Assembly: GCF_020510585.1 (NCBI RefSeq)
Contig: NZ_CP075190.1
Location: 3,346,001-3,410,000 of the forward strand
DNA: 64,000 nucleotides
DNA from: Ferribacterium limneticum
GTDB lineage: Bacteria > Pseudomonadota > Gammaproteobacteria > Burkholderiales > Rhodocyclaceae
Direction of reading: 5' to 3'
The position numbers were made by a program, and so were the translations under genes. Position 1 is the first letter of the stretch. Each line of letters opens with the position of its first letter. Of this stretch, positions 30,934 through 53,136 are shown one piece after another. The notes below the pieces were generated by a model, which was given only the letters and a program-made list of their open reading frames with translations, searched no databases and had not been told where the DNA came from.

Positions 30934-30970
30934 ATTTCGTTTTTGGCCGTTTTTTCCAGTTGACCGTAGC
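30934..30970 (+). repeat. Dispersed repeat, copy A
   Basis: Read on the minus strand it begins GCTACGGTCAACTGGAAAAA and ends CGGCCAAAAACGAAAT. It differs from copy E (39891) at only three of about 37 positions. It fills the gap between the SpmAB-fusion stop and the binding-protein gene. In the plus frame it would read YFVFGRFFQLTVAN. Confidence 0.8.
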
Positions 30971-30979
30971 AAACCCTTG

Positions 30980-32224
30980 CTAGTGGTAGAAGGCGTAGCC
31001 GATCAGAATGGCGCCGACCAGCCCGACGGCGTCGGCGATCAGGCCACAGGCCAGGGCGTAGCGGGTTTTGGTGATATTCACGCTGCCGAAATAGACAGCC
31101 AGGACGTAGAAGGTGGTTTCGGTCGAACCCTGGATGATGGCGGCGAGTTTGCCCTGGAAGGAATCGACGCCGTAGGTGGTCATGACGTCGACCATGAGGC
31201 CACGGGCGCCGCTGCCGGAGAGCGTTTTCATGAGGCCGACCGGCAGCGCCGGGACGAAATCGTCGTTCATGCCGAGCGCCAGGACGAGGCTGCGGATGGC
31301 GCCGATCAGGTAATCCATGCCGCCGGTCGTGCGAAAAACCGAGATGGCAACGAGCATGGCGATCAGGTAGGGGATGATCTGCACTGCGACGCCGAAACCT
31401 TCCTTGGCGCCCTCGACGAAGCTTTCGTAGACGTCGATGCCGCGCCACGCGGCAACCGCGACAAAAAGGGCGATGATCGAGACGATCAAACCGCTGCCGA
31501 GCAGGCCGATCATTTGCGCCATTTGTTCCGGCGGCATGCCGGCCAGACAGAAATACAGCCCGCCCATGAGTGCCGCGAAGCCGGCGAAGAAGGCGAGAAC
31601 CGGTTTGCAGAACAGATTGATGCGCTGCCAGATGGCGACGGCGATCAGCCCGGCGCAGAAGGAAACGAAGGTGCCGAGGAGCGTCGGCAGAAAGATGTCG
31701 GCAGCGTTGAAGCCGACCAAGCCCTGCTTGAGGGCGATACTCTGGCGGATGGCGATGACCGTCGTCGGGATCAGCGTGATGCCGGCCGTATTGAGGACCA
31801 GGAACATGATCATCGGGTTGCTGGCGGTGTCCTTCTGCGGGTTGATTTCCTGCAGTTCGCGCATGGCCTTGAGACCGAGCGGGGTCGCCGCGTTGTCGAG
31901 GCCGAGCATGTTGGCGCTGACGTTCATGACGATGCTGCCGCTGGCCGGATGGCCAGCCGGAATGTCGGGAAAAACGCGGCGGAAGAAAGGCGCGACGAGG
32001 CGGCTGAAGAGTTCGATCAGCCCGCCCTTTTCACCGATTTTCATGATGCCCAGCCACAGGCTCATGACGCCGACCAGGCCGAGCGAAATGTCGAAACCGG
32101 TTTTGGCCGTATCGAACAGCCCGGTCAGGACGCGCGTGAAGATGTCGAGGTCGCCCTGCAGCAACTGCGCCACCGCCGCAACGAAGCCGACGAGGATGAA
32201 GGCGACCCAGATTTTATTGAGCAC
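30980..32224 (-). CDS. SpmA/SpmB fused nucleoside-recognition membrane protein
   Basis: This 414-residue inner-membrane protein has two Gate/nucleoside-recognition domains. The N-terminal half matches SpmA (SIVMNVSANMLGLDNAATPLG) and the C-terminal half SpmB (GSTETTFYVLAVYFGSVNITK near the end). The two are separate genes in Bacillus, where they affect spore core dehydration, and fused in many Gram-negatives, where the role is unknown and may be transport of small molecules. There is no sporulation context here, as expected. It is single or loosely linked to the downstream binding-protein/kinase pair, 106 bp away. Confidence 0.88.
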   Translation of the reverse strand: MLNKIWVAFILVGFVAAVAQLLQGDLDIFTRVLTGLFDTAKTGFDISLGLVGVMSLWLGIMKIGEKGGLIELFSRLVAPFFRRVFPDIPAGHPASGSIVMNVSANMLGLDNAATPLGLKAMRELQEINPQKDTASNPMIMFLVLNTAGITLIPTTVIAIRQSIALKQGLVGFNAADIFLPTLLGTFVSFCAGLIAVAIWQRINLFCKPVLAFFAGFAALMGGLYFCLAGMPPEQMAQMIGLLGSGLIVSIIALFVAVAAWRGIDVYESFVEGAKEGFGVAVQIIPYLIAMLVAISVFRTTGGMDYLIGAIRSLVLALGMNDDFVPALPVGLMKTLSGSGARGLMVDVMTTYGVDSFQGKLAAIIQGSTETTFYVLAVYFGSVNITKTRYALACGLIADAVGLVGAILIGYAFYH

Positions 32225-32281
32225 AGGCGGCGACGCGGGATGGTTGAAAGGCAGCCAGTCTAGCCGGCCGGCCGAGGACTG

Positions 32282-33007
32282 TCACCGCATTGGCATCGAG
32301 CAGGTTGGCAAACCCCAGGCAGCGCGCCGGGCTGCGTATTCCGCCTGCGGCAGTTGGACCAGCAAAGGCGCCGCCGAAGCATCGAGCCAGCCGGCGATTT
32401 CGCTCATGTCGGCCAGCGCCATCGCCGTGCAGCCGGCGGTCGGCACGCCCTGCCCCGCCCAGACATGCAGGAAGATGCACGAGCCGGCGCCGGGCACCGA
32501 CGGCTCGGCATTATGGGCGACGACGGCACCGACGGCATAGCGTTCGTCAGGCCTCAGCATGTCCTCGCACGACGCCCAGTCGGGGTCGGCCACGGTGGAT
32601 TGATCGACGATCCGGTTGTAATGCGCCGAAGCCGGGTCGTCGATGGCCTTGAGGTCAGGCGTCGCGGCCAGGTAGGTCAGCTTGGCAGCACGGGCAAACG
32701 GGCTGTCCGGCGCGGCGTAACCAAACAGCGCCGTGATGGCGAATATGCCGGCCGGCGCACAACCATCGCCCTCGCTCTTTTCCCGACCCTCGACCGGCGG
32801 GTGAAAGCCACGCCCCCAGGCCAGCCCGGCGCGGCCGAGGCTCACCGCAATCGCCGGCCCGACTGGCTGCCAGTCGCCGTCGTACCCCGTGCGCTCGAAG
32901 CGCTGCAACTGCGCAGCCTTGCTGTTCCAAGCTGGTGCAACGACGAGGATCAATTGCCGAGACGATGCAGCGATTGGCGAAGAGACGGTTGTAGGCGACG
33001 GCGGCAT
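32282..33007 (-). CDS. L,D-transpeptidase-like (YkuD-family) protein
   Basis: This 241-residue protein resembles the YkuD-type family with SRQLILVVAPAWNSKAAQLQRFE at the start of the domain. Other motifs are GDGCAPAGIFAITALFGYA and a catalytic-type motif C-terminal to HNAEPSVPGAGSCIFLHVW, namely GVPTAGCTAM (His, Gly and Cys as expected). The family acts on peptidoglycan peptides in the periplasm, but this reading has no signal peptide. The only in-frame ATG is at 33007 and a stop lies just upstream, within or beside repeat copy B. The 5-prime end may have been altered by the repeat, or the start lies in another frame through a frameshift. Confidence 0.75.
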   Translation of the reverse strand: MPPSPTTVSSPIAASSRQLILVVAPAWNSKAAQLQRFERTGYDGDWQPVGPAIAVSLGRAGLAWGRGFHPPVEGREKSEGDGCAPAGIFAITALFGYAAPDSPFARAAKLTYLAATPDLKAIDDPASAHYNRIVDQSTVADPDWASCEDMLRPDERYAVGAVVAHNAEPSVPGAGSCIFLHVWAGQGVPTAGCTAMALADMSEIAGWLDASAAPLLVQLPQAEYAARRAAWGLPTCSMPMR

Positions 33008-33034
33008 GCGGGCAACTCGGAAAGGTGATCGATG

Positions 33035-33071
33035 ATTTCATTTTTGGCCGATTTTTCCCGTCGACCGTGGG
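33035..33071 (+). repeat. Dispersed repeat, copy B
   Basis: Read on the minus strand it begins CCCACGGTCGACGGGAAAAA and ends CGGCCAAAAATGAAAT. It lies immediately upstream of the L,D-transpeptidase-like gene. In the plus frame it would read DFIFGRFFPSTVGLAN. Confidence 0.8.
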
Positions 33072-33187
33072 ACTCGCCAATTTTATGCCCGGCCCCGCGT
33101 CGCGTCTCGCCTGACGCCAACCCATGCCAAATCAATGCGCATCACTGCGGCATATCAGCACCCGCCGCCGCAACCGCTACTAAGTAC

Positions 33188-33223
33188 ATTTCAATTTTGG
33201 CCGTTTTCCCCGGTTGACCGTGG
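33188..33223 (+). repeat. Dispersed repeat, copy C
   Basis: Read on the minus strand it begins CCCACGGTCAACCGGGGAAA and ends CGGCCAAAATTGAAAT. It is the second copy within 155 bp and has the same orientation as copy B. The plus frame reads HFNFGRFPRLTVGLA. Confidence 0.78.
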
Positions 33224-33283
33224 GATTGGCGGCAAGATGGCAAACGAATAGCCAGCAGCCGGTCCACTCAGATTTCTGCCGCT

Positions 33284-33321
33284 CGGCATCGGCATCGGCA
33301 TCGGCATCGGCATCGGCATCG
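33284..33321. repeat. Hexanucleotide microsatellite (CGGCAT)6
   Basis: There are just over six perfect tandem copies of CGGCAT in the intergenic region, about 90 bp beyond the stop of the MASE3 hybrid kinase. Perfect tandem units can vary in number by slipped-strand mispairing. The location is not inside a convincing gene. Confidence 0.9.
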
Positions 33322-33410
33322 TCAGATAACGGCAGTGCGCAAAAAATGCGAAAAAGATATTTACATACCCTTTGACCGCCACCCTCTACAAACCGGGACT
33401 TTTCGCTTGC

Positions 33411-35897
33411 TCAGGCCTGAGACCTAGGCAGCCACTTCAGCAAAATCTCGAACAGTTGTTCGGGGTCAACCGGCTTGCCGATATGGTCGTTCATTCCTGC
33501 GTTCAGGCAGCCTCTACGATCTTCGTCGAATGCGTTGGCCGTTATGGCCAGAATCGGGGTGCCCTGGTATCCGGGCAGGGCACGGATTTCCCGTGTCGCA
33601 TCAACGCCGTTGAGGTTGGGCATCTGCATATCCATCAGGATTAGGGCGTAACGATTTTGTTTAGCCAGCTCTACGGCCTTTTTTCCGTCTTCGGCCAGAT
33701 CGACAACCAGACCAACATCTTCCAACAGCTCCCTTGCGACCTCTTGATTAATCGGCTCGTCCTCCGCCAACAGAATGCGTGTGTTGGCATGCTCGATTCT
33801 CAAGCGATCTTCTGCGGAATGAATGTTTTTCGCCTGTACCGGCATAACGACTTCTGTCGAGTTATCCATCCTGGCGGTGAACCAGAACGTGCTTCCCGAA
33901 CCTGGCACGCTCTCGACCCCGATATCGCCCGCCATCAGATGCACAAGCCGCTTGCTGATCGCCAGCCCGAGGCCCGTACCTCCATACTTGCGCGTCATGG
34001 AGCCATCAGCCTGCTCGAAGGCATTAAAGATGCGTTTTTGATTCTCAGCCGAGATGCCGATACCGGTGTCCTGTATCTCGAAGCGCAGCATTAAGTCGTC
34101 CGGGCTTTCTTCGGCCACCCTGATGCGAATAGTGACTGATCCATGCGTAGTAAATTTGAGGGCGTTCCCGGTCAGGTTGAGCAGAATCTGGCCGAGGCGC
34201 AGAGGATCTCCTTTCATTGAAAGATGAGCAACTTCTGCTGGCAAATCGACCTGTAGCTTGATCCCCTTCTCCTGGAAGCGATGGCTGACCAAGCTCAGGA
34301 GATTTTCCAGAACTTCGCCAAGCTTGAAGCTCCTCTTTTCCAGCGTCAGATGGTCGGCCTCGATCTTTGAAATGTCGAGGATGTCGTTGATGACCCGAAG
34401 CAGGTGATGGGAGGCGTTCGTGACTTTGGTCAGTTGGTCGATGAGTTTCGGGTCGCGGGCGTGGCGCAATGCCAGTGCGGTCATGCCGATAACGGCGTTC
34501 ATGGGTGTACGCAACTCGTGGCTCATGTTGGCCAGAAACGTGCTCTTGGCGACATTGGAAGCTTCGGCAGCCTCCCTGGCACGTTCCAAATCGGCAGTGC
34601 GCTTTTTGACGAGCCCTTCGAGGTGTTTTCGGTGATTCTCAAGTTCGGCCTGGGCTAGCTTGAGGGGCGTAATGTCCGACACCAGGACATAAAAGCCTCG
34701 TACTTCTCCATCCTGTGCATCCGGAATGTAATGCGCTTGGGAATGTCGTACGACCGAGCCGTCTGGCGCGGGAATATCACGCTCGAAAATCTGCGGTTCG
34801 CCTCGCAACGCGGCCTCGATATACGGAAGGTTGAGGCGGAAACGCTCTTCGCCGATGACGTCGCGGATATGCTTGCCGGGAATCTGTTCGGGATTGATTC
34901 CAAACCAGGTGGCGTAGGCGTGATTGGCAAATCGGTTGTGTAAAGTTGCATCCCAGTAACCGATCATCGAGGGCAGGTTATCGAGGATCGACCTGAGGTC
35001 GCGCTCGCTCTGTCGCAGCCGAGAACGTTCAATATCGAGTTCGCGATACGGTGCCTGGACTCCCGCAACAAACAAGGCGCGATAAATCATCACATAGGCA
35101 ATTGCCTTATATACATGGCCTAACAGATTGAAAACATCGGTTACGTCTGCGTAGATCGTAAAGAACATTTCGGCCAACCCCTGAATCCAGGCGGCGGCCG
35201 CGAGCCAACGCAAATCCTTATTGTCGGTATGACGGCTAATCACATAAAACCGAATGGCTGCCATGCCATAGACCGCGGCAAGAAGATATTCGAAACCGAT
35301 CTTGAATGCCGTAAGTCCTTGCCCCTCAATGAACGTACGAGGCAGCCACTCAGCATGACCCAAACCGACCCACCAGATCGTGGCGGCAAGGGCGAGAGCT
35401 GATCCAATAACAGCATTACTGGTTGTAGATGGCCATTGCCTTGGCGGCAATACAGCCACTGCGAGAAGCACTCCTGCTGCGATATAACGTCCAGCCAGCC
35501 AAAAGTTGATGGCCTTCTCCGGGCTGCTTGGTGTCAGCAGGGCCGGCATTCCGGCATAAGACAGGGCGTGAGCAAAATCGACGAGGGCAACGGCAAGAAA
35601 TCCGGCGCCGAGTATGACTCGATGACTGTTTATGCCTTGGTTTCGAAGGTTCCACGCCAGCGCAAATACCATCGCCGAAACTGCCATAGCGATGAATTCG
35701 AGGAGGGTATGCAGCGGCAAGTAATTCGAGGGTGAGTCAAAGAGCTTTGCCGCCGGAAGCATCTGGCCAAATACCAAAATGAGCGTCAGGCCGGCCGCCC
35801 AAAATACTTCCGGCGAATAGCCGACTAACCAGCCCTTGACTATGACATCGTCGATTTGCTTAATTGGAGTACCAGACGCCAACGGTTGAATCTGCAT
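33411..35897 (-). CDS. Hybrid sensor histidine kinase with MASE3-type membrane domain
   Basis: This 828-residue membrane kinase has an N-terminal domain of about seven helices (residues 30-275), which resembles MASE3 ([25 protein letters not shown]). It is followed by PAS (about 300-415), a coiled coil and HisKA with His460 in [12 protein letters not shown]. HATPase has DTGIGI and [10 protein letters not shown], and a receiver domain carries Asp in [14 protein letters not shown]. It shares the HisKA-to-REC architecture with the kinase at 27188-29608, but the sensing part is different. No separate response regulator is adjacent, so the phosphate path is unknown. It is monocistronic as far as I can see. 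Confidence 0.92.
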
Positions 35898-36182
35898 TTT
35901 TCGCTCAGTGATTCAATCTGAATTGCGCCATTATCTCCGAAACCTTACCGAGAATCTTAGTCTTCGGACATGAACGGGAAACCCCTGCGCTCGAACGAAA
36001 TTCGAGCCATTTGAGCGGTGTCATTCCCGAATACCGGTCCCTCAAATTCAATTCCTATCTCTGCCTTTGGTCAGCATCGAGGAGCAAAGATGGCCAACCC
36101 AGTTGATTTTCCGCGGAAAACGGCACTTATCTTCGGCGCTGTGGTCTCTGAGCCAGGACAATCATCAGCGCACGGGGGAAAC

Positions 36183-36776
36183 ATGGGCAAAGGCCGCCTG
36201 GAGGCATTCAGCGATGGCGTCATGGCCATCATCATCACGATCATGGTTCTGGAACTCAAGGTGCCGCATGGCGAACGCCTCGATACGCTAACCGCCTTGA
36301 TTCCGGTGTTTTTCAGTTACGTGCTGAGCTTCGTGTACGTCGGCATTTACTGGAACAACCATCACCACATGCTGCACACGGCGCAAAAGGTCACCGGGCC
36401 TATCCTCTGGGCCAACCTGCATTTGCTTTTCTGGCTATCGCTGTTCCCGTTTGCTACCGGCTGGATGGGCGAAAACCACTTCGCGGCCGTACCGTCGGCA
36501 CTTTACGGCGGGGTGCTGTTCATGGCCGCGGTTGCCTACTGGATACTGCAGGAAACCATCGTCGCCTCGCAAGGCGACAACTCCCTGTTGCGCAAGGCGC
36601 TGGGGCGGGACTGGAAGGGGAAGTCTTCACCAGCGGTCTACGCCGTTGCCATGGTGGCGGCCTTCTGGTCGCCCTCCCTGGCGCAAGGCCTGTACGTGTT
36701 GCTGGCACTGGTCTGGCTGATTCCCGACAGGCGCATCGAGAAGGCGCTGGCGAGCAAGGGAAGCCCGGCCGGTTAA
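36183..36776 (+). CDS. TMEM175-type (DUF1211) membrane protein
   Basis: This 197-residue inner-membrane protein has about six helices. It starts with the family signature GRLEAFSDGVMAIIITIMVLE, which in bacterial TMEM175 lines the potassium channel pore. The YWNNHHHMLHT segment after helix 2 is also typical. The ATG at 36183 has GGGGGA immediately upstream. A longer frame from 36018 adds 55 residues without family similarity. Homologues conduct potassium, but selectivity is not established for this one. It has no clear operon partner. Confidence 0.87.
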   Translation: MGKGRLEAFSDGVMAIIITIMVLELKVPHGERLDTLTALIPVFFSYVLSFVYVGIYWNNHHHMLHTAQKVTGPILWANLHLLFWLSLFPFATGWMGENHFAAVPSALYGGVLFMAAVAYWILQETIVASQGDNSLLRKALGRDWKGKSSPAVYAVAMVAAFWSPSLAQGLYVLLALVWLIPDRRIEKALASKGSPAG

Positions 36777-36921
36777 AGCAAGCCGCGGCAATCGACATTG
36801 CAGGGCACATGCGGCACCATGAGGATGCACTTGAATTCGCCAGCCGGATCGCCGGGCGCTTCGCCCAAAACATACAAATTCACCGGCTGCCTTGAATGGC
36901 CGGGTCAAGGAGGAAACGATC

Positions 36922-37395: not shown

Positions 37396-37494
37396 TCTAC
37401 CGACTCAGACGAATAGCCGGCAGGACCAGGAGCAGCGGGGTTTGATTTTTCTCATTCTCCCCGGCCTCCTGGCCTTTGCTTGTCGGCACTCAGC

Positions 37495-37659: not shown

Positions 37660-38333
37660 GAGTCTTCTCCAGTAAATGGTGAATAGGGATGAATTCGTTT
37701 TGCTGCCGGCGTTTATGTGCAAGACATATGCCCGGTGCGCGCCAGGACAAAAATGCCAGACGGTGGCGACCGGGAAACGACTCGGCAGGAAATAATGGGG
37801 TCTGCCGAATTCGGCAGCACGACAGGCTGCCCGGCTGTTGGCCAAGGCTTTCGTGACGGTGATTCGCCACTTTTCCGCTGGCGAAACATCAGGCTTTACG
37901 AACGCGCATGACTGCCAGTTATGTCAATCAATAATATTGCACTGCCAGAAATGACACGAACTACCCGGCCCTCCGGCAGGTCAACGGACACCTGAGCCGA
38001 GCTGATGCAACACCCCGAACACCTCTTCGTGTTCGCCGAGGCACTCGGGTTGGAAGCCGGCATTCCCCTGCTGTGACGCATTTCCGGTTCGCAGCGTGGT
38101 CAGGAAAAAGTCGTCGAATTTCAATGGCGGTGGTTCGGCACCTCTTCCCCTGGGAGGAAAGGAAGAGGCGCCTTTGGGTACTGCCAGCTTCCGGAGAGTT
38201 TTATAGCCAGATACGTGCCAAAAGCATAACAAAGAACTAAATCATTAAAAATCAACAACCTGAAAAATTACAGATGAAAAACCTCGGCCATTTACGTCAA
38301 AATTGTCAGTCATGGCTGACGAAACCAAGCCTT
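37660..38333. other. Intergenic region without a supported gene
   Basis: This 670-bp gap has no gene that I can defend. On the minus strand 37920-38100 carries codon-like sequence (QPECLGEHEEVFGVLHQLGS, then RVVRVISGSAILLID in another frame) that may be a decayed gene. An inverted repeat CCTCTTCC/GGAAGAGG is at 38140-38168. The part next to nirN (38200-38300) is AT-rich. Confidence 0.35.
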
Positions 38334-38369
38334 CCACGGTCAACCGGAATTTTTGCCCGAAATTGAAAT
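38334..38369 (-). repeat. Dispersed repeat, copy D (diverged)
   Basis: CCACGGTCAACCGGAATTTT followed by TGCCCGAAATTGAAAT keeps both ends of the repeat, with changes in the middle. It lies 5 bp beyond the nirN stop codon. Together with copy E in the nirN signal peptide, the gene is flanked by two copies. Confidence 0.65.
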
Positions 38370-38374
38370 GCCAC

Positions 38375-39949
38375 TCAATGGCTGGTGCCCTCTGATTTCG
38401 TGATCTTGTTCCAGACGTTGTACTTGCCGACCGGCTTCTTCATCGGCAGACGCTTCACCTCCTTGAGCGTCACGGCATCGTAGATGATCAGCGCGCCGTC
38501 CATTTCCCACAGGCTGGCCAGCACGTACTTGCCATCCTTGGTGAACTCGACGTGGGCGAAGGTCTTGCCCGGTTCCGGCTTCAGTTCGGCGACGATCTCC
38601 AGCGTTTCCTTGTCGATGATCTGCATGGTGTCCTTGAACTCCTTGCTCATCATCGAATCGGTCCACGCGTAGCGGCTGTTTTCGTGGCTGCGCATGAAGA
38701 AGCCGGGACCGCGCGTCTTGATCTGCTTGATGGTCTGCCAGGTCTGCATGTCGATGATGCTGATCAGGCCTTCGTTGAGATTCGGCGTTGCCATCACCGT
38801 TTTACCCTGCCATGTCCAGCTGATGCCGGAACCGAGGTGCGGCATGCCTGGCAATTCGAGGTCGGCAATTTTCTTGCGCGCGTCGAGATTGACCACCTGG
38901 CCGGTCACTGCCGCCTTGGCATCATTGCGCGAAGCGCCCATCACCTCGTCGTAGCCCTGAGTGAAATAGAAATCGTCGAGGTAGTCGTCGAGCTGCGTAC
39001 GTTGCGGATTGAGGAAGCCTGGGATGAACGCGCCTTCCTGATACTTGTAGTCGTGGATCATGCCGGCCGGAATGGCATCGGCTTTCGGGTTGTACGAGAT
39101 TTCCCAGACCTCTTTTACATCCTTCAGCGCGGCGACGAAGCTCTGGCGCGGCGAAGCGTCGTAGACGGCCGAGACGCGCGACGATACCTTGCCGTCCTTC
39201 TCACTGACCGGCAGGATTTTCTGCAGCTTGAGATCGGCGTCGAGAATGACCAGGCTGTGCGGCAGATAGTTGGCCACCGCCACCCACTTGCCGTCGCCCG
39301 ACACTGCGGCATTGCGCGTGTTGATGCCGGCGCGCACTTCGGCGACGACCTTGAGGTTCCAGAGGTCGAATTTAGTGATCCAGCCGTCGCGCGAGGCAAA
39401 AAAGACGTAGCGCCCATCCGGCGTGAATTTCGGCCCGCCGTGCAAGGCGAAGCGGGACTGGAAGCGATGGATCGGTTCGAGCTTGTCGCCGTCAAGGATG
39501 GACACATGGTGATCGCCGCTTTCGACGACGACAAACAGGTTGAGCGGATCGGCCGTGAACTGCGGTTTGTCGGGCAGGCTGCCCGGCGCGTAGTTGACGA
39601 TACGCGAGGCGTTGATTTCCTTCTCGCCCCAGGCCGGCATCGGCTTGATCGGCGTATAGACGTAATCGACCAGCGCCTTGATCTCGTCGGCCGCCAAGGT
39701 CTGGCCAATGCCGAGCATCTGCGTCGCCGGCCGGCCGTCACGGATGACCTTTTCGGCCTCAGGCTTGCGCAGGCGGGCGAGGTTCTCCGGGATCAGGGCC
39801 GGGCCGATGCCGCCCAGCCGGTCAGCACCATGACAGGCGGCGCAGTGCTGCTTGAAGTTTTCGCCAACATCGGCCGCCCCGGCGCTGTTTGCTACGGTCA
39901 ACTGGAAAAAAAGGCCAAAAATGAAAAGCCCCGACGCCCGGATTTTCAT
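38375..39949 (-). CDS. nirN: NirN, cytochrome c / d1-domain protein
   Basis: This 524-residue periplasmic protein has a signal peptide, a cytochrome c domain with haem motif CAACH (Cys36-His40), and a d1-type eight-bladed propeller (LFVVVESGDHHVSILDGDKL, GGPKFTPDGRYVFFASRDG). NirN resembles NirS but lacks nitrite reductase activity. In Pseudomonas it converts dihydro-haem d1 to haem d1 and hands it to NirS. The hydrophobic core of its signal peptide, FIFGLFFQLTVA, is encoded by a copy of the dispersed repeat. It overlaps the nirJ stop by 4 bp, forming nirJN. Confidence 0.9.
   Translation of the reverse strand: MKIRASGLFIFGLFFQLTVANSAGAADVGENFKQHCAACHGADRLGGIGPALIPENLARLRKPEAEKVIRDGRPATQMLGIGQTLAADEIKALVDYVYTPIKPMPAWGEKEINASRIVNYAPGSLPDKPQFTADPLNLFVVVESGDHHVSILDGDKLEPIHRFQSRFALHGGPKFTPDGRYVFFASRDGWITKFDLWNLKVVAEVRAGINTRNAAVSGDGKWVAVANYLPHSLVILDADLKLQKILPVSEKDGKVSSRVSAVYDASPRQSFVAALKDVKEVWEISYNPKADAIPAGMIHDYKYQEGAFIPGFLNPQRTQLDDYLDDFYFTQGYDEVMGASRNDAKAAVTGQVVNLDARKKIADLELPGMPHLGSGISWTWQGKTVMATPNLNEGLISIIDMQTWQTIKQIKTRGPGFFMRSHENSRYAWTDSMMSKEFKDTMQIIDKETLEIVAELKPEPGKTFAHVEFTKDGKYVLASLWEMDGALIIYDAVTLKEVKRLPMKKPVGKYNVWNKITKSEGTSH
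39891..39926 (-). repeat. Dispersed repeat, copy E (inside nirN signal peptide)
   Basis: GCTACGGTCAACTGGAAAAA followed by AAGGCCAAAAATGAAA on the plus strand. Read in the nirN frame, it encodes FIFGLFFQLTVAN. It is nearly identical to intergenic copy A. Confidence 0.85.
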
Positions 39950-43509: not shown

Positions 43510-43511
43510 CC

Positions 43512-43982
43512 ATGTCGAACCCCAATTTCCAGCTGCAACGCGACTCCTACGGTCGACTGGTATTAACGGCCGAAAATGGAATCATCCACGCCGGCGTCAC
43601 ACCGGTGCGCGCCTTTCCCATCGCCGCCCCCGACGAAGGCCTGTCGCTGGTCAATTACGAAGGCCACGAAGTCGCCTGGATCGACAGCCTTGCCGACCTG
43701 CCGCCAAGCATAGCCGCCTTGATCGAGGCCGATCTCGCCAGTCGCGAGTTCGTGCCGGAAATCGAAGGCATCGAGGATGTTTCGAGCTTCGCCTGCCCCA
43801 GCACCTGGCGGCTACGGACCAATCGCGGCCCGGCCGAGCTGATCCTCAAAGGCGAGGAAGACATCCGCCGCCTGAGCCAGACGCGTCTGCTCATCGCCGA
43901 CGCCCATGGAATCCAGTTCCTGATCCGCGATCTGAGCACGCTCGACCGGCACAGCCGCAAGCTTCTCGACCGCTTCCTGTAA
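43512..43982 (+). CDS. DUF1854 protein, cyanophycin-cluster
   Basis: This 156-residue soluble protein matches DUF1854: FQLQRDSYGRLVLTAENG, GVTPVRAFPIAAPDEGLSLV near the start and HGIQFLIRDLSTLDRHSRKLLDRFL at the end. It nearly always follows the cyanophycin-associated ABC transporter. A partnership with the transporter is inferred from the conserved pairing. The function is unknown. Confidence 0.85.
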   Translation: MSNPNFQLQRDSYGRLVLTAENGIIHAGVTPVRAFPIAAPDEGLSLVNYEGHEVAWIDSLADLPPSIAALIEADLASREFVPEIEGIEDVSSFACPSTWRLRTNRGPAELILKGEEDIRRLSQTRLLIADAHGIQFLIRDLSTLDRHSRKLLDRFL

Positions 43983-44100
43983 CGCTTTGTCCGCGTGCGT
44001 GACATTTTTAGACGGCCGTCAGCCGCAAGCGGACTAAAGCGTTAATAATGCTGCACTCAAACATTCATCACCGCAGGCCAACGGAGCCAGAGCCAAGAGC

Positions 44101-46353: not shown

Positions 46354-46369
46354 CGAGGAATAAAGCGTC

Positions 46370-48943
46370 ATGGACGTTTCCCGCATTCGCGCCCTGCGCG
46401 GCCCCAATCTGTGGAGCCGGCACACCGCCATTCAGGCCATCGTCACCTGTGAAGGTGGCGAAGTCGCTATCGCCAATCTGCCCAATTTCGAAGCACGCCT
46501 GCGCGAACGCTTCCCGGAACTTGGCGACCTGATTCCCTCCGATCACCTCGACACCGTGTCGATGGCCCACGCGCTGGAATTCGCTGCGCTCGGTCTGCAA
46601 GCCCAGGCCGGTTGCCCGGTCACTTTCAGCCGGACGGCACAAACCGTCGATCAGGGCGTATATCAGGTCGTCGTCGAATACACCGAGGAAGACGTCGGCC
46701 GCCTGGCCTTCGAGCGTGCCGAGCAGCTTTGCCTCGCCGCCCTCAACGACACGCCTTTCGATCTGGACGGTGTCCTCAAGGAACTGCGCGACCTCGACGA
46801 AGACATCCGCCTCGGCCCGTCGACCGGTGCCATCGTCTCGGCTGCTCTGGCCCGTGGCATCCCGATCCGCCGCCTGACGCAGGGCAGCCTCGTCCAATTC
46901 GGCTGGGGCAGCAAGCAGAAGCGCATCCAGGCCGCCGAAACCAGCCTGACCAGCGCCATCGGCGAATCGATTGCCCAGGACAAGGAACTGACCAAGAAAC
47001 TGCTGCACGCCTCCGGCGTTGCCGTGCCTCATGGCCGCCCGGTCGAAGACGAAGACGACGCCTGGGTCGCCGCACTTGAAGTCGGCCTGCCGGTCGTCGT
47101 CAAGCCGCAGGACGGCAATCAGGGCAAGGGTATTTCGGTCAATCTGACGACCGAGGAACAAGTCCGTCGCGCCTACCGCGTCGCCATCGAATTCCGCGAC
47201 GACATCATGGTCGAGAAATTCCTCTCCGGCCACGACTGGCGTCTGCTGGTCATCGGCGACAAGCTGATCGCCGCCGCCCGCCGCGACCCGCCACTGGTCA
47301 TCGGCGACGGCACGCATACCGTCCGCGAACTGGTCGACATCGTCAATCGCGACCCGCGCCGTTCGGATGGCCATGCCACCTCACTGACCAAGATCCGCTT
47401 TGACGAAATCGCCCTCGCCCGCCTCGAAGAGCAAGGCTACAGCGCCGATTCCGTGCCCGGCCGCGGCGTTCGCGTTGTCCTGCGCAACAACGCCAACCTG
47501 TCGACCGGCGGCACCGCCACCGATGTCACCGACGACGTCCATCCCGAACTCGCTGCCGCCGCCGTCGCTGCCGCCCAGACCGTCGGCCTCGACATCTGCG
47601 GCATCGACGTCGTTTGCGACACCATGCACAAGCCGCTCGAAGAGCAAGGCGGCGGCATCGTCGAATGCAATGCCGCCCCCGGCCTGCGCATGCACCTCGA
47701 CCCATCCTTCGGCAAGGGCCGCGCTGTCGGTGAAGCCATCGTCGGCATGATGTTCCCGGATGGCGACAATGCCCGCATCCCGGTCGTCGCCATCGCCGGC
47801 ACCAACGGCAAGACGACGACCAGCCGCCTGATCGGCCGCATTTTCGAGTCGAACGGCCTGCGTGTCGGCATGACCAGCACCGACGGCATCTACGTCGAAG
47901 GTCGCCGCATCGATACCGGCGACTGCTCCGGCCCGCGCAGCGCCCGCAACGTCCTGATGCACCCCGATGTCGATGCCGCCGTTTTCGAAACGGCGCGTGG
48001 CGGCGTGCTGCGCGAAGGCCTCGGCTTCGACATGTGCGACGTGGCGGTCATCACCAACATCGGCCTTGGCGACCATCTCGGCCTCAACTACATCACGACG
48101 GTCGACGAACTGGCCGTGGTCAAACGCGTCATTGTCGAAAATGTCGCGCCGAACGGCACGGCAGTACTCAACGCGGCCGACCCGGTGGTGGCTTCGATGG
48201 CCCACCACTGCCACGGCGACGTCATCTTCTTCGCCCGCGACCGCATGAACCCGGTGCTCGCCACCCACCGTGCCCAGGGCAAGCGAGTCGTCCATGTCGA
48301 GCGCGACGCCATCATCTGCAGCGAAGGCCGCAAGAAACAGCGCATCCCGCTGGCCAATATCCCGCTGACCCGCAACGGCACCATCGGCTTCCAGGTCGAG
48401 AACGCCATGGCTGCCATCGCCACTGGCTGGGCACTTGGCTATGCCTGGGAAGTCATCGAGCGCGCCCTGGCCAATTTCGTCAGCGATGCGGCGACCGCCC
48501 CTGGCCGTTTCAACGTTTTCGACTACAAGGGCGCGACGCTGATCGCCGACTACGGCCACAACCCGGACGCCATCCAGGCGCTGGTCGGCGCCATCAACAA
48601 CATGCCGGCGGTACGCCGCTCGGTGGTGATCAGCGGCGCCGGCGACCGGCGTGACGATGACATCCGCCAGCAGACCGAAATCCTCGGCGATGCCTTCGAC
48701 GACGTGATTCTTTACCAGGACGCCTGCCAGCGCGGCCGCCAAGACGGCGAAGTGATCGGCCTGTTGCGCGAAGGTCTGGCCAATGCCCGCCGCACCAAGC
48801 AGATCGACGCCATCACCGGCGAATTCATCGCCATCGATACGGCGCTGGCCCGCCTGCAGCCGGGCGACCTCTGCCTGATCCTGATCGACCAGGTCGAAGA
48901 GGCACTGGCGCATATCGCCCAGCGGATCGGCGAAGCACGCTGA
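46370..48943 (+). CDS. cphA: Cyanophycin synthetase
   Basis: This 857-residue enzyme polymerises aspartate and arginine into cyanophycin using ATP. It has an N-terminal domain beginning RALRGPNLWSRHTAIQ and an ATP-grasp domain (PVVVKPQDGNQGKGISVNLT, IVECNAAPGLRMHLDPS). A complete Mur-ligase-like domain has P-loop GTNGKTTTS (477-485), NIGLGDHLGLNYI and ISGAGDRRDDDIRQQ in the C-terminal lobe. It ends a four-gene cluster (ABC transporter, DUF1854, CphA-prime, CphA) and is followed by a strong hairpin. No cyanophycinase gene is in the window. Confidence 0.95.
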   Translation: MDVSRIRALRGPNLWSRHTAIQAIVTCEGGEVAIANLPNFEARLRERFPELGDLIPSDHLDTVSMAHALEFAALGLQAQAGCPVTFSRTAQTVDQGVYQVVVEYTEEDVGRLAFERAEQLCLAALNDTPFDLDGVLKELRDLDEDIRLGPSTGAIVSAALARGIPIRRLTQGSLVQFGWGSKQKRIQAAETSLTSAIGESIAQDKELTKKLLHASGVAVPHGRPVEDEDDAWVAALEVGLPVVVKPQDGNQGKGISVNLTTEEQVRRAYRVAIEFRDDIMVEKFLSGHDWRLLVIGDKLIAAARRDPPLVIGDGTHTVRELVDIVNRDPRRSDGHATSLTKIRFDEIALARLEEQGYSADSVPGRGVRVVLRNNANLSTGGTATDVTDDVHPELAAAAVAAAQTVGLDICGIDVVCDTMHKPLEEQGGGIVECNAAPGLRMHLDPSFGKGRAVGEAIVGMMFPDGDNARIPVVAIAGTNGKTTTSRLIGRIFESNGLRVGMTSTDGIYVEGRRIDTGDCSGPRSARNVLMHPDVDAAVFETARGGVLREGLGFDMCDVAVITNIGLGDHLGLNYITTVDELAVVKRVIVENVAPNGTAVLNAADPVVASMAHHCHGDVIFFARDRMNPVLATHRAQGKRVVHVERDAIICSEGRKKQRIPLANIPLTRNGTIGFQVENAMAAIATGWALGYAWEVIERALANFVSDAATAPGRFNVFDYKGATLIADYGHNPDAIQALVGAINNMPAVRRSVVISGAGDRRDDDIRQQTEILGDAFDDVILYQDACQRGRQDGEVIGLLREGLANARRTKQIDAITGEFIAIDTALARLQPGDLCLILIDQVEEALAHIAQRIGEAR

Positions 48944-48963
48944 CCGCCGTCAGGCGCCCGTCC

Positions 48964-48992
48964 CAGAAAGCCCGGCCAGTCCGGGCTTTCTG
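48964..48992 (+). terminator. Terminator after cphA
   Basis: CAGAAAGCCCGG and CCGGGCTTTCTG form a perfect 12-bp stem with a 5-nt loop, 21 bp past the cphA stop. The T-run is weak. Confidence 0.78.
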
Positions 48993-49084
48993 CATTCAGC
49001 GCTGGGTTTGCCGGTGATCCACCGTCAACGGCATTTCACATTGCCGACGCAGAATGCCCCTGTCGCCTGAACCAGACCTGCCGC

Positions 49085-49741
49085 ATGAAACCCCTCCTTG
49101 CCCTCCTGCTCCTGCTCGCCAGCGCTGTCGCCGGGGCCGACAACGACAGTTTCAAGGTGCGCTGCGAAAAACTGGCGGCGGAAGCAAATTTCACGGCCGT
49201 ATTCGAGGACAGGCCGGTAAGTCGCGACGACGGCATCCGGATGGCTGACCTGGCGCGCTTTGCCAAGGCGGGCAGCAGCCTGAACCACAGCACGCTGGGT
49301 GTAACGCGGGCCGAACCGGCCGCCAGCATGGCGCTTTCCGTCCGCACCTTGAGCAATCGCGATGGCCGGGTGTGCGCCGTACCGTCGCTGCAACTAAAAC
49401 TCGGCTTTTCGAGTTTCGAGGTCCTTCTTGCCCGGGAACTTGGCCCCCATCCCTGCCGGCGGCGCATCGTGGACGAACACGAGCAGGAGCACGTCACGGT
49501 CTGGCGCAACCATCTCAGGATAGGCGCCCGGCTGATGCCGGTTGCGCTACGCCAGTCGCTCGGCCAGGCGGCTTATTTTTCCAGCATCGGTGAAGCCGAA
49601 TCCGTGCTGCGCCAACGCGCCGACCACCAACTCGCCAGCCTGCTGGACAGGCTCAAGGAAGGGATCAATGCCGCACAACAGCAAATCGACTCGGCGGCAT
49701 CCTATCGCGCTGCGGAAAACCGGATGCGGGCCTGTCCTTAG
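49085..49741 (+). CDS. Exported protein with HExxH motif (DUF922-like)
   Basis: This 218-residue secreted protein has a signal peptide (LLALLLLLASAVAGA) and the zinc-protease-like motif HEQEH at residues 132-136, with further acidic and His residues nearby. It resembles DUF922-type proteins, although the match is loose. There is an N-terminal pair of repeated basic-acidic segments and two cysteines (Cys97, Cys124) able to form a disulphide. The 3-prime end meets the convergent nirH gene with a 4-bp overlap. Its function is unknown, and it is probably unrelated to denitrification. Confidence 0.7.
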   Translation: MKPLLALLLLLASAVAGADNDSFKVRCEKLAAEANFTAVFEDRPVSRDDGIRMADLARFAKAGSSLNHSTLGVTRAEPAASMALSVRTLSNRDGRVCAVPSLQLKLGFSSFEVLLARELGPHPCRRRIVDEHEQEHVTVWRNHLRIGARLMPVALRQSLGQAAYFSSIGEAESVLRQRADHQLASLLDRLKEGINAAQQQIDSAASYRAAENRMRACP

Positions 49742-50214
49742 CTGCCTATCCTCAGCCCGGTCTTTTTGAGGATTCGAGTCGAGTAGAGAATGTCGTTTCC
49801 GCGGCAGGCCTCACCGAGCAAGCGGCGGATTTCGCCAGCCTTGGTCGCGCATTCATCGCGCGATGCGCCGTGCACCATGGCGAACAGGTTGTACGGCCAG
49901 GCTGGCAGGGCGCGCGGGCGGCGGTAGCAGTGGGTGACAAAACCGAGGGCGCCGATGCGCTCGCCGAATTCGTCGACCAATTCGTCCGCGACATCCCACA
50001 CCGTCATGCCGTTGGCCGTCCAGCCGATGGCGTAGTGATTGGGGACGGCACCGATGCGGCGGATGACGCCGGTTTCGAGCATGCCTTTCAGCCGGCTCAT
50101 GACTTCGTCGGCCGGCAAACCCAGTTGCTCGGCGATGGCTTGATAGGGGCGCGCCACCAGTGGCAAGCCGCCCTGGGTGGCGACGATCAGGGCGCGATCG
50201 ATATCGTCGATCAC
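49738..50214 (-). CDS. nirH: NirH, haem d1 biosynthesis decarboxylase subunit
   Basis: This 158-residue Lrp/AsnC-like protein of the siroheme decarboxylase family contains an N-terminal winged helix (VARPYQAIAEQLGLPADEVMSRL) and the CYRRPRALPAWPYNLFAMVHG segment that marks NirD/L/G/H. It helps convert sirohaem to 12,18-didecarboxysirohaem. The start is GTG at 50214, overlapping the nirG stop (GTGA). A longer reading to 50352 would lie inside nirG. Confidence 0.88.
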   Translation of the reverse strand: MIDDIDRALIVATQGGLPLVARPYQAIAEQLGLPADEVMSRLKGMLETGVIRRIGAVPNHYAIGWTANGMTVWDVADELVDEFGERIGALGFVTHCYRRPRALPAWPYNLFAMVHGASRDECATKAGEIRRLLGEACRGNDILYSTRILKKTGLRIGS

Positions 50215-50669
50215 AGCCGGGCCTCGAGTTTCATTTCGACGAAAAATTCGCGTTCCTTGGGGAAGGCATAGACCGCCAGGCCCGTGTCGCGCTCGATGCG
50301 GGCAATGGCTTCGGCAATGCCGTCCTTCGTTTCGGTAGCGAGCACGAACCACATGTTGAGCGCGTGTTCGCGGCGGTAGTTATGGGCGACCGCGGGCAAT
50401 TCGTTGACCAGCGCCGTCACCTCGTCGTAACGCGCCTCCGGGGCGGCCAGGGCGGCCAGCACGAAGGCGCCGCCCATTTCTTCGATCTGGAACATCGGGC
50501 CGAAGCGGGTCAGTACTTTATCTGCCAACAATTGCCCGATTCTCTGCAGCAATTCCTCCTCGCTGATGCCCAGTTGCCCGGCGGCCTCGGCGTAGGGGCG
50601 TTCGCAGATCGGGAAATCACCTTGCAATTTTGCGAGAATTTTCCGGTCGACCGTGGAAAGCTCACGCAT
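50211..50669 (-). CDS. nirG: NirG, haem d1 biosynthesis decarboxylase subunit
   Basis: This 152-residue Lrp/AsnC-like member of the NirDLGH group has FPICERPYAEAAGQLGISEEELLQRI as the helix-turn-helix region and AVAHNYRREHALNMWFVLA as the family core. Its start overlaps the end of nirDL by 8 bp and its stop overlaps nirH, so translation of the set is coupled. It acts in sirohaem decarboxylation in the cytoplasm. Confidence 0.9.
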   Translation of the reverse strand: MRELSTVDRKILAKLQGDFPICERPYAEAAGQLGISEEELLQRIGQLLADKVLTRFGPMFQIEEMGGAFVLAALAAPEARYDEVTALVNELPAVAHNYRREHALNMWFVLATETKDGIAEAIARIERDTGLAVYAFPKEREFFVEMKLEARL

Positions 50670-51648
50670 AGCGTGCGCCGTTCTGCTTGAAGCGGGTCAG
50701 CGAGAACAGCACCTCGTGGGCGGCCGTTTCAAGGCCGTGGCGCTGGCGCAAGTCGGCGATGATGGTCTCGACTTCGCCGCGTTCGCGACCGTGGATCATG
50801 CAGAACAGGTTGTACGGCCAGTCGGGCAGGCGGCGCGGCCGGCGGTAGCACAGCGTCACCGCCGGCTCTTCGGCCAGGGCGCGGCCGATGTCGCTGACCT
50901 GCTCGTCCGGAATGTCATGAACCAGCATGGCGTTGGCACGGTAACCGAGCTCCTGGTGGCGAACGACGACGCCGAAGCGCTTGATGGCGCCCTCTTCGAG
51001 CCAGCGGCGAATGCGGCCGAGGACTTCCGGTTCCGAGGCGCCGATGCGCTCGGCGATCAGCGCGAAGGGCCGGATGAACAGCGGCAGGCCTTCCTGCAAC
51101 ACGGAAACGAGACGACGCTCGGCCTCGTCGATGAGGGCCGTCGGCTGCACCGGCTGAGCCGTGGCAACGCATTTTTTCTTGTCGCCATTCAGGCAGAAAC
51201 CGAGATCGATGTGAAACTCTTCGAGCAGCGGCAGCGCCAGCAGCGGGTAACCGGCCGCCTTCTCGATGGCACCGAGGCTGGCCTGCAGGCGCCCTTCGGT
51301 CGCGGCGGTGACGACGAACCACAGGTTGTAGCGGTGCTCGCGTTCGTAGTTGTGATTGACCTCGGGGAAGCGGTTGACCGCAGCCGCCACGGCTTCGAGC
51401 TTTTCCGGCGGCACGGCCATCGCCGCCAGCGTCGAGGCGCCGATGCGCTTGGGGGCGAAGACGGCACCGACGCGCGAAATCTTGCCTTCGCGGCGCAGGT
51501 TTTCGAGGCGGCCGAGAACGACCTTTTCCGCCACGCCGAGACGTGCTGCCAATTCGGCAAACGGCGCCGAGACCAGCGGAAAGTCGCGCTGGAAATCGTT
51601 GAGCAACTGGAAGTCGAGGCTGCTGCTGTTCATGGCCAAAGCGTCCAT
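50662..51648 (-). CDS. nirDL: NirDL fusion, sirohaem decarboxylase
   Basis: This 328-residue protein joins NirD-like (residues 1-160, HNYEREHRYNLWFVV) and NirL-like (175-328, CYRRPRRLPDWPYNLFCMIHG) halves, each with an Lrp-type winged helix and an AsnC-like domain. The fusion occurs in several betaproteobacteria and in Hydrogenobacter, and the purified protein decarboxylates sirohaem. The ATG overlaps the nirF stop (TGATG). Confidence 0.93.
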   Translation of the reverse strand: MDALAMNSSSLDFQLLNDFQRDFPLVSAPFAELAARLGVAEKVVLGRLENLRREGKISRVGAVFAPKRIGASTLAAMAVPPEKLEAVAAAVNRFPEVNHNYEREHRYNLWFVVTAATEGRLQASLGAIEKAAGYPLLALPLLEEFHIDLGFCLNGDKKKCVATAQPVQPTALIDEAERRLVSVLQEGLPLFIRPFALIAERIGASEPEVLGRIRRWLEEGAIKRFGVVVRHQELGYRANAMLVHDIPDEQVSDIGRALAEEPAVTLCYRRPRRLPDWPYNLFCMIHGRERGEVETIIADLRQRHGLETAAHEVLFSLTRFKQNGARYA

Positions 51649-52811
51649 CAGAAACCGATGCGCACGGCGCGCGAGGTGAAGAAAATGCCGGACGGGCTTT
51701 CGGCCGGAATTTCGCCCAGTTTGGCAAAATTTTCGGTGTTGTAAATCAAAACCTTGTTGTCATCGCGCGCCGAGAGCCAGACGTTTTCACCGCGCGGGGC
51801 GAATTCCATGTGCAGGATGCCCTTGCCCGGCTCCATCTGGTGCGTGACTTTGCCGACGAGGGTGTCGATGACATCGACCTTGGCGTTGTCCGGGAAGGCG
51901 AGATTGACCCAGATCTGGCGGCCATCGGGGCGGGCCATGACGAAGACCGGCTGGCCGCGCACGGGAATGCGGCCAACTTCCTTCCAGGTCACGACATCGA
52001 CGACCAGCACTTCGTGGCGACCGATCGCCGGCAGATAGGCCTTGCCCTGCGCCACCGACCAGCCGCGCAGGTGCGGCATCTTGAAGACGGGCAATTTTTC
52101 CTGCCCGCGGCCGTAGTTTTCGAGAATCTTCTTCGCCCCCTTTTCCGGCTGCCAGAGGTCGAGCATGGCGACACCGTCCTCGCCGAACAGGCCAGCCAGG
52201 AAATAGCGGCCGTCCGGCGTGACGAGGCCGTCGTAGGGCTGGCTGCCGGCCGGGAAGCGTTGCGTTGTAGGTTTCCGCGGGTTGCTGAAGTCGGTGACGC
52301 GGATTTCGCCACCGTCGAACAACGCGTAGGCAAACTTGTTGCCGCCTGTATCGGCCAGGCCGACGACCTTGGAGAACTGGCCGGGCGCGAATTCAGCCGG
52401 CACTTCGGAGAGCAGTTCGAGCGTGTCGCTGTCGAAAGCCTTGATGCCGCCCGGCGTGTAGTTCTGGGCGACGACGATGCGGCCGTCCTGCGAAATCGAG
52501 CCGCCGATGGCGTTGCCGGACTGGATGATGCGTTTGACGATTTTCGCTTCAAGCAGATCGATCTTGGTCAGCCCGCCGTCGCGGCCGAAGATGAAGGCGT
52601 AGCGGCCATCGCGCGAATAGACGGCGGAGGCGTGCGAGAGGTCGCCAAGGCCGCCGATGCGAGCATAGGGCTGACGCGCCGTGGTGTTGACCAGGGTGAC
52701 GTATCCACTGGCCCGCTCGATGATCAGGCCGAGGTCGCCGGTGCCGCGAAGTTGCGGCCCGGCGCAGGCATTTAGCACGAGGGCAAACAAGGCGATCAGC
52801 AGCAGGCGCAT
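51648..52811 (-). CDS. nirF: NirF, haem d1 biosynthesis lipoprotein
   Basis: This 387-residue d1-propeller protein has a lipoprotein signal ending LNAC (Cys16), so it is membrane-anchored in the periplasm. Propeller repeats are seen in ASAVYSRDGRYAFIFGRDGG, NAIGGSISQDGRIVVAQ and TPDGRYFLAGLFGEDG. NirF catalyses a late step of haem d1 formation and contacts NirS and NirN. It is 7 bp after nirC and overlaps nirDL. Confidence 0.92.
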   Translation of the reverse strand: MRLLLIALFALVLNACAGPQLRGTGDLGLIIERASGYVTLVNTTARQPYARIGGLGDLSHASAVYSRDGRYAFIFGRDGGLTKIDLLEAKIVKRIIQSGNAIGGSISQDGRIVVAQNYTPGGIKAFDSDTLELLSEVPAEFAPGQFSKVVGLADTGGNKFAYALFDGGEIRVTDFSNPRKPTTQRFPAGSQPYDGLVTPDGRYFLAGLFGEDGVAMLDLWQPEKGAKKILENYGRGQEKLPVFKMPHLRGWSVAQGKAYLPAIGRHEVLVVDVVTWKEVGRIPVRGQPVFVMARPDGRQIWVNLAFPDNAKVDVIDTLVGKVTHQMEPGKGILHMEFAPRGENVWLSARDDNKVLIYNTENFAKLGEIPAESPSGIFFTSRAVRIGF

Positions 52812-52818
52812 GGCGTTC

Positions 52819-53136
52819 TCACTGGGGGAATTCGGTCATCAGTTTATCGACTATCCACGCCGCTTCGGCTTCGGATAGGAAGGCTTTCCACGGCGGCATC
52901 GGCGTGCCGGGGCGGCCGTAGTAGATCGTCGCGGCGAGGCCCTCGGCCGGCTTGTCGCGCAGGGTTTCGGGCAGCAGCGCCGGACCAAGCCCGCCTTTGA
53001 GCGTCATGCCGTGGCAGGAGCCGCAATCCTGGCGGACGAGGTGCACGAGTTCCTTCTGGCGTGACGCTTCCGGTTCGCCGGCCAATCCCACGGTCGACAG
53101 GAAAAAAAGGCCAAAAATGAAATTACTCGGCGACAA
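52819..53136 (-). CDS. nirC: NirC, small c-type cytochrome
   Basis: This 105-residue monohaem cytochrome has the motif CGSCH (Cys38-His42) and the distal ligand region around GTPMPPWKAFLSEAEA. I start at TTG 53136: GGAAGGGG lies six bases upstream and the reading gives a signal peptide MSPSNFIFGLFFLSTVGLAG. It overlaps the cupredoxin stop by 14 bp. The signal peptide core is encoded by dispersed-repeat copy F and is almost the same as that of NirN. NirC donates electrons in haem d1 maturation or to NirS. Confidence 0.87.
   Translation of the reverse strand: MSPSNFIFGLFFLSTVGLAGEPEASRQKELVHLVRQDCGSCHGMTLKGGLGPALLPETLRDKPAEGLAATIYYGRPGTPMPPWKAFLSEAEAAWIVDKLMTEFPQ
53087..53123 (-). repeat. Dispersed repeat, copy F (inside nirC signal peptide)
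   Basis: CCCACGGTCGACAGGAAAAA followed by AAGGCCAAAAATGAAAT on the plus strand. Read in the nirC frame, it encodes FIFGLFFLSTVG. The repeat end touches the stop codon of the cupredoxin gene. Confidence 0.85.

Follow-up and report, generated by a model that had tools for sequence, protein, structure and literature searches.

A 64,000-nucleotide stretch of the Ferribacterium limneticum genome (RefSeq assembly GCF_020510585.1, contig NZ_CP075190.1, positions 3,346,001 to 3,410,000 of the forward strand; hereafter the window) contains a short repeat found both between genes and, in frame, in the signal peptides of NirN and of a NirC-like cytochrome. What is this repeat, and how did it come to lie in both kinds of place? 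A first-pass annotation of the window described it as a 37-bp dispersed repeat and offered two origins: a mobile repeat taken over as an export signal or signal-coding DNA that had spread. The comparison of the window with the whole 4.42-Mb genome (G000) and with its relatives points to another answer. The repeat would be a DNA-uptake-sequence-type motif of the Dechloromonas/Azonexus lineage; judging from the sequences compared, the probability of this is about 0.8. Its family would most likely be the third bacterial one with such a sequence.

Anatomy and Abundance of the Motif

The repeat is dispersed, as had been claimed, and far commoner than chance would give. A 29-position pattern with up to three mismatches has 442 matches genome-wide, whereas the same pattern read backwards, used as the control, has none. 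There is no strand bias in general (220 forward and 222 reverse copies). A profile was built from 90 copies with no more than three mismatches, found in a systematic sample of 864 kb out of 4.42 Mb (40 stretches of 20 kb and the window). The element is a single asymmetric motif, about 41 bp long and sharply bounded, ATTTCAATTTTGGCCnTTTTTTCCGGTTGACCGTRGnAntC. It consists of the core GGTTGACCGTRG, which begins at about position 24 of 41, and of AT-rich segments about one helical turn apart, located on one side of the core and centred at positions 7.5 and 18.5, a distance of 11 bp. In the 864 kb, exact cores (97, control 2) outnumber cores with a single mismatch (86, control 31), which indicates a strong consensus. 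The information content is about 54 bits over 41 bp, an upper value, since the copies were chosen at three mismatches or fewer. The T-rich strand reads F-x-F-G-x-F-F-x-L-T-V-A when translated.

In the window, all seven copies of the first-pass annotation are present, with positions correct to within a few bases, and the copies at 30934 and 39887 are nearly identical (95% over 40 bp), as it had stated. Two weak copies beyond its list, at 43542 and 50621, were found, both in genes. The copies, with mismatches to the 29-position pattern and the strand on which the T-rich sequence lies, and the genes that contain or adjoin them are as follows:

5285..5325, reverse strand: degenerate motif copy, 4 mismatches
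30934..30974, forward strand: intergenic motif copy with 0 mismatches; L080, L081, and L084 have orthologous copies
33035..33075, forward strand: motif copy, intergenic, 0 mismatches; orthologues in L080, L081, and L084
33188..33228, forward strand: motif copy, intergenic, 2 mismatches
38328..38368, reverse strand: weak motif copy with 5 mismatches (by-eye count), directly beyond the 3' end of nirN
38375..39949, reverse strand: nirN, 524 aa, Cytochrom_D1 (PF02239) and Cytochrome_CBB3 (PF13442)
39887..39927, reverse strand: motif copy with 0 mismatches, read in frame within the signal peptide of NirN
43512..43982, forward strand: DUF1854 protein, 156 aa, containing the 43542 copy
43542..43582, reverse strand: weak motif copy, coding, antisense, 4 mismatches
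50211..50669, reverse strand: NirDL-like siroheme decarboxylase gene
50621..50661, forward strand: weak motif copy, antisense in the start region of the siroheme decarboxylase gene, 4 mismatches
52819..53136, reverse strand: NirC-like small c-type cytochrome, 105 aa, TTG start, Cytochrome_CBB3 (PF13442)
53083..53123, reverse strand: motif copy with 0 mismatches, read in frame within the NirC-like cytochrome's signal peptide

The 38328 copy fails the four-mismatch cut-off of the window scan. The name NirC is that of the first-pass annotation, given from context. A short GGCATC tandem run lies at window positions 33277-33322, right beside the 33188 copy. In the low-GC part of the window (1-26900; GC 0.50-0.54 versus 0.57-0.65 beyond), the 5285 copy alone was found within four mismatches. 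This part adjoins tRNA-Leu(gag) at 26956-27040 and contains genes for a hydantoinase/oxoprolinase, MMPL, DUF1329, a sigma-54 activator, and a thiolase; it is probably an acquired island, nearly free of the motif.

Location of the Copies in the Genome

Placement was judged with a home-made hexamer gene finder, the gene calls of which are approximate. Fifty of the 90 sampled copies are wholly intergenic, 11 partly so, and 29 lie wholly in predicted genes, while the intergenic share expected under random placement is 12%. Gaps between convergent genes are enriched in copies (20/48 versus 27% of the space, p 0.018), and gaps between divergent genes are depleted (4/48 versus 19% of the space, p 0.032). 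The 29 wholly coding copies comprise 13 in sense and 16 in antisense, with all six classes of orientation and frame represented.

The overlap with start regions suggested by the first-pass annotation was borne out for the sense copies: 6 of the 13 fall within the first 30 codons versus 9% expected (p 0.0005). No such enrichment was found among the antisense coding copies (2/16). At least seven N-terminal sense copies resemble signal peptides or anchors, including those of NirN, the NirC-like cytochrome, and a patatin/Omp85 protein; this list covers one frame only, and six of the seven are also N-terminal in a second listing. Signal peptides are encoded by only a minority of the coding copies.

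Stretches of low GC content, which served as a stand-in for acquired DNA, are poor in copies: seven copies were found in 11 stretches below 58.5% GC versus 83 in the 32 stretches above. With respect to the replication arms, 37 copies lie on the leading strand versus 53 on the lagging one, without clear bias, and a replication-linked motif was rejected on this ground. Only three pairs of copies within 250 bp of each other occur in the sample.

Origin of the Copies at Coding Sites

The motif arose by point changes at four coding sites, namely thiC, tldD, nirN, and nirC. The thiC copy lies antisense inside the radical S-adenosylmethionine enzyme (ESLRSTGKMGEKMA), and the tldD copy is in sense (NSNFGQFFPSTVAR). 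For each of these two genes, the 30 best-matching of 59 genomes with a match, our own included, were compared. The protein alignments across the motif site are gapless in 30/30 sequences for thiC and in 30/30 for tldD, and in the nucleotide alignment at the tldD site the gaps cancel out. Mismatches at the site drop as the motif count of the genome climbs (thiC, rho -0.62, p 0.0003; tldD, rho -0.77, p 8e-7; the genomes are related, and the p values are therefore optimistic). At tldD, three or fewer mismatches are confined to the seven genomes in which core matches number 371 or more. An intermediate form stands in place in thiC of G030 (CTGCGGTCGACTGG...GGGCGAAAAAATGG). G000 also has a second thiC-like gene (C1:2991541-2993409), 92% identical over residues 13-636.

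At the DUF1854 site (43542), the alignment is ungapped in 24/30 relatives. The intergenic copy at 33035 is ungapped against L096, a motif-less relative, and represents the one clear intergenic case. From 348 flank pairs, 221 were dropped, as the flank match ended more than 25 bp from the element, and 17 with 5-7 mismatches were left uncounted; 53 carried the motif and 57 did not. In these 57 comparisons of motif-bearing with motif-less sequences around NirN (51 at NirN itself), no gain near +41 bp was found; the net length difference was 0 in 25 and negative in the remainder. No empty-site-like abutting flanks were detected around NirN when abutting or overlapping flanks were allowed. The same gap test was used by Redfield and colleagues, who reported that the uptake signal sequences (USSs) of Haemophilus are not insertions (PMC1626085).

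Signal Peptides of NirN and NirC

The motif-encoded peptide is MKIRASGLFIFGLFFQLTVANSAGAA in NirN and MSPSNFIFGLFFLSTVGLAGEP in the NirC-like cytochrome. The starts of NirN were read in 41 loci and those of NirC in 20. NirN of motif-less congeners has signal peptides of its own, for example MSWRILIPAGFAAYFLFGMAQLAEA. The distance from the NirN start to the haem site (QHC) is 33 residues both in our genome and in five motif-less relatives read that far; other motif-less NirN proteins are a few residues longer. L082 and L084 are motif-rich genomes (556 and 530 matches), and their NirN is without the motif. Among the 20 NirC orthologues, seven of which were judged by DNA only, perfect copies occur in G076 and G002, copies with one mismatch in G080, with two in G067, and with three in G034 and G005. 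NirC of the dialect genomes G030 and G015 carries their own forms, GTCTGTCGACCGCAG and CTGTCGACCGCAG. In the motif-poor G071, G068, and G035, the NirC signal peptides are motif-less, and their length to EPDA...RQ is equal within one residue.

Since motif-poor relatives have NirN and NirC signal peptides of nearly equal length, the motif seems to have overwritten signals for export that were present in both proteins before it. One part of the earlier idea of a repeat serving in export stands, as the hydrophobic core of the two signal peptides does come from the motif; its recruitment as a new signal does not, since the signals pre-existed. The first-pass annotation had itself named peptides older than the repeat as evidence that would count against this idea, and such peptides are largely what the motif-less relatives contain.

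Distribution and Dialects

The core pattern TTTTNNCNGTYGACCGYRG, with no more than one mismatch, was counted in 60 genomes of the genus (Dechloromonas/Azonexus), our own included, drawn from a larger group. At least 38 matches were found in 34 genomes, 19 in two, and fewer than ten in 24, while reversed controls gave 0-2 per strand. In 297 genomes outside the genus (of 300 in the order), there were six matches or fewer, similar to their controls. D. denitrificans ATCC BAA-841 has 136 matches and D. hortensis 124, D. hankyongensis has 4 and D. agitata is5 3, and records of Thauera, Ottowia, and Azoarcus have 0-1. The loci bearing NirN belong to Dechloromonas, Azonexus, and Azonexaceae/Rhodocyclaceae.

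The core form GGTTGACCGTRG is that of G000, and there are other dialects, including GTCGACCGCAG. The form GTCGACCGCA(G) leads the 10-mers of G030 and G034, the form GTCGACCGCTG is frequent in the 10-mer listing of G063, and no dialect form was found among the top 10-mers of the motif-poor G071. The consensus sites of G034, G030, and G063 were selected for a T-tract, which they thus contain by construction; the other AT segment stands out in G034 and less so in G030 and G063. In the 400-kb sample of G063 (L298-L317), about 90 copies of a repeat resembling clustered regularly interspaced short palindromic repeats (CRISPR) were noted, and its 10-mers, such as CCCCCGCGTT and GGATAGGCCC, dominate the 10-mer count. 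Two viral contigs from IMG/VR (L338 and L339), possibly phages of these bacteria, contain one exact 19-base TTTTTCCGGTTGACCGTRG each.

Comparison with Known Systems

Pasteurellaceae and Neisseriaceae are the two families in which species with a strong sequence preference in DNA uptake have been described (PMC7811141). The hallmarks that published accounts list are hundreds of copies with a strong consensus, origin by point mutation, occurrence in both orientations, intergenic excess, location at convergent gene ends, scarcity in acquired DNA, restriction to clades, and dialects (PMC1626085, PMC7811141, PMC3630211, PMC12616744); scarcity in newly acquired segments is given for USS and for the DNA uptake sequence (DUS) of Neisseriaceae alike (PMC7811141). 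These hallmarks are found together in the motif, which was placed in the uptake-sequence class for this reason.

The USS of Pasteurellaceae (Hin-type AAGTGCGGT, Apl-type ACAAGCGGT) is described as a 9-bp core and two AT-rich segments roughly single helical turns apart (PMC1626085). The motif resembles it in its many copies, very strong core, AT segments on one side, intergenic excess along with many coding copies, point-mutation origin, and clade types (PMC1626085). According to another study, the reverse-complement USS, with AT segments upstream of the core, favours gene 5' ends in most Pasteurellaceae tested, A. pleuropneumoniae being different (PMC2346458). The sense copies of the motif share this orientation, and this pattern is what the first-pass annotation took for signal-peptide cores. 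Unlike USS, the motif has an unrelated core and fewer copies per Mb, belongs to another bacterial class, and is known here from sequence alone.

In Neisseriaceae, DUS is likewise dispersed, has clade-specific dialects, and occupies permissive intergenic regions, and inverted pairs at terminators are described (PMC3630211). Pilins matching the ComP_DUS family occur in Dechloromonas/Azonexus as well. DUS differs in its length of no more than about 13 nt and its lack of AT segments, and the sequences are unrelated.

Repetitive extragenic palindromic (REP) sequences, miniature inverted-repeat transposable elements (MITEs), and Rickettsia palindromic elements are also dispersed within and between genes. 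These elements insert, whereas the motif arises in place, gapless at the coding sites tested. Highly iterated palindrome 1 (HIP1), Chi, and the FtsK-orienting polar sequences (KOPS) are, like the motif, over-represented and arise by point mutation. They are short, Chi and KOPS are strand-biased, and none has a modular anatomy of 41 bp.

Competence Genes

In the host genome, comEC is located at 2764275, and a cluster of pilin-like and minor-pilin genes, including a ComP_DUS-type pilin, at about 3.112-3.115 Mb; members of the cluster other than this pilin were named by eye. Among the 60 genomes of the genus, comEC was found in 56 and ComP_DUS-type pilins in 56. Relatives of the PilE-like ComP_DUS pilin of G000 with 61-83% identity are present only in G002, G076, and G021, and weaker ones are found in motif-rich and motif-poor genomes alike. 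A receptor was sought by gene content; the PilE-like pilin and comEC do not discriminate motif-rich from motif-poor genomes and were set aside.

In G035, a one-contig genome with eight core matches, comEC consists of two overlapping pieces in different frames (C1:1957001-1962000, L346). This genome has apparent worn relics of the motif in tldD (seven mismatches, FGQF kept) and thiC (eight). In G002 and G068, an element of about 33 kb divides comEC near codon 280 (G002 C33:108775-144579, L340, L341, L347, and L348; G068 C1:2217911-2252395, L342 and L343). The interrupting elements have a GC content of 0.52-0.53, and one open reading frame starts like a tyrosine integrase, by eye only. About 28 comEC codons are present on both sides of the G002 element, which looks like a site-specific integration into the gene of the DNA-uptake channel. 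No motif copies (three mismatches or fewer) were found in 29.5 kb of it. In the stretch taken from G018 (C8:1083501-1089000, L344), there is a comEC fragment alone, codons 279-501. The bearing of these comEC losses on the motif-poor genomes is suggestive only.

No report of uptake sequences, competence, or repeats was found for Dechloromonas/Rhodocyclales in a search that left subscription literature mostly outside. A term search of the D. aromatica genome paper revealed no mention of competence or repeats (PMC2907700).

Evaluation of the Uptake-Sequence Assignment and Its Alternatives

Several observations weigh against an uptake sequence. The motif is 41 bp long, whereas USS is up to 32 nt, and it reaches about 100-126 copies per Mb, fewer than in Haemophilus or Neisseria (with their genome sizes taken from general knowledge). 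Copies are spread over the 20-kb stretches less evenly than a Poisson distribution would give (variance/mean 1.59 in 43 stretches); among the 32 stretches with GC of at least 0.585 the ratio is 1.17, which is not more regular than random. In the literature, the spacing of USS and DUS is given as more regular than random (PMC1626085) and as uneven (PMC7811141). High and low motif counts are interspersed on the single-gene thiC tree, where at least six changes are forced among 30 genomes. The motif-poor G025 (nine matches) has a near-match at thiC with four mismatches, and some motif-rich genomes are without the site, namely G061 and G014 (the latter with 162 matches and 13 mismatches at thiC). 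Motif-poor congeners also have comEC and ComP_DUS-type pilins, neither of which separates the groups. In the motif-rich G002 (524 copies), comEC is split, and a loss of competence there would have to be recent. No report of competence in Dechloromonas/Azonexus was found, again with subscription literature mostly outside the search. Finally, the insertion test reaches coding sites, while intergenic copies are barely testable, 221 of 348 flank pairs being lost, and the excess of motif identity over flank identity (43 of 51 pairings) is biased, as the pairs were picked for the motif and counted both ways. The last two points are the reason why the figure for an uptake sequence was kept from being higher.

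The alternative that fares best is that the motif is bound by a chromosomal protein (a nucleoid organiser or a factor for segregation or recombination, in the manner of Chi or KOPS) and that selection maintains it at its hundreds of locations. The origin by point mutation agrees with it, and phased AT-rich tracts are typical of DNA-bending sites. We nevertheless regard it as unlikely: there is neither an overall orientation bias nor a clear one by replication arm, the roughly 54 bits, even as an upper value, far exceed what a host site needs, and it is hard to imagine selection rewriting codons of thiC and tldD at single sites without a drive. The scarcity in low-GC stretches and the clade dialects match uptake sequences instead.

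A small mobile repeat (REP- or MITE-like, or residing in genes like the Rickettsia palindromic elements) would account for hundreds of similar dispersed copies with sharp edges and for very unequal numbers between congeners. At the coding sites tested it is ruled out: 60/60 thiC and tldD sequences are gapless, none of the 57 other comparisons, around NirN, has a gain near 41 bp, and thiC contains half-forms of the dialects in place. In addition, an insertion of 41 bp, a length that three does not divide, would break the thiC and tldD frames. The mobile repeat taken over as a signal, as first proposed, thus finds no confirmation, and a mobile origin seems very improbable. A transcription terminator or RNA element is hardly any more credible: convergent gaps are enriched and the T-rich strand has T runs, but the two strands are used equally, many copies lie in genes both ways, and just three pairs are closer than 250 bp. 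The other origin first proposed, signal-peptide-coding DNA spreading from gene to gene or a repeat recruited for new export signals, has the signal-peptide-like N-terminal sense copies in its favour and can practically be dismissed, since 50/90 copies are intergenic, 16/29 wholly coding ones are antisense, and NirN and NirC of motif-poor relatives already carry signal peptides.

Possible Mechanism and Implications

For the uptake sequence, we infer a role of the motif in DNA uptake, a receptor, and a drive. The core would be read at uptake, and the AT-rich segments, spaced by about one helical turn, may aid bending or melting of the DNA at the pore. Recombination of imported fragments would turn chance near-matches into motif-like sequences (molecular drive), and copies would accumulate by point changes wherever the host tolerates them, that is, between genes, also where convergent genes end, and within genes in the parts that encode variable loops and signal peptides. 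The latter may suit the motif well, as its T-rich strand gives a ready-made hydrophobic core, and NirN and NirC would be two such places.

With some reserve, we consider it probable that sequence-specific uptake of self-DNA evolved a third time, in free-living Betaproteobacteria, converging on the Pasteurellaceae plan, in which AT segments spaced by one helical turn accompany a core; the core itself would be unrelated, and one genus would contain at least three dialects. Codons of conserved enzymes would have been rewritten by its drive, as would signal-peptide cores in their entirety, and the system would be decaying in lineages such as G035, which is without an intact comEC.

If this is true, an unrelated third case, found in a genus of environmental bacteria, would mean that sequence-specific uptake can arise outside mucosal bacteria, and it would offer a fresh comparison for the role of the AT segments. 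Motif-rich and motif-poor controls are at hand, D. denitrificans ATCC BAA-841 and D. hortensis versus D. agitata is5 and D. hankyongensis. The signal peptides of exported proteins would have been recast by a force unrelated to export, and the motif might open a route to genetics in Dechloromonas/Azonexus.

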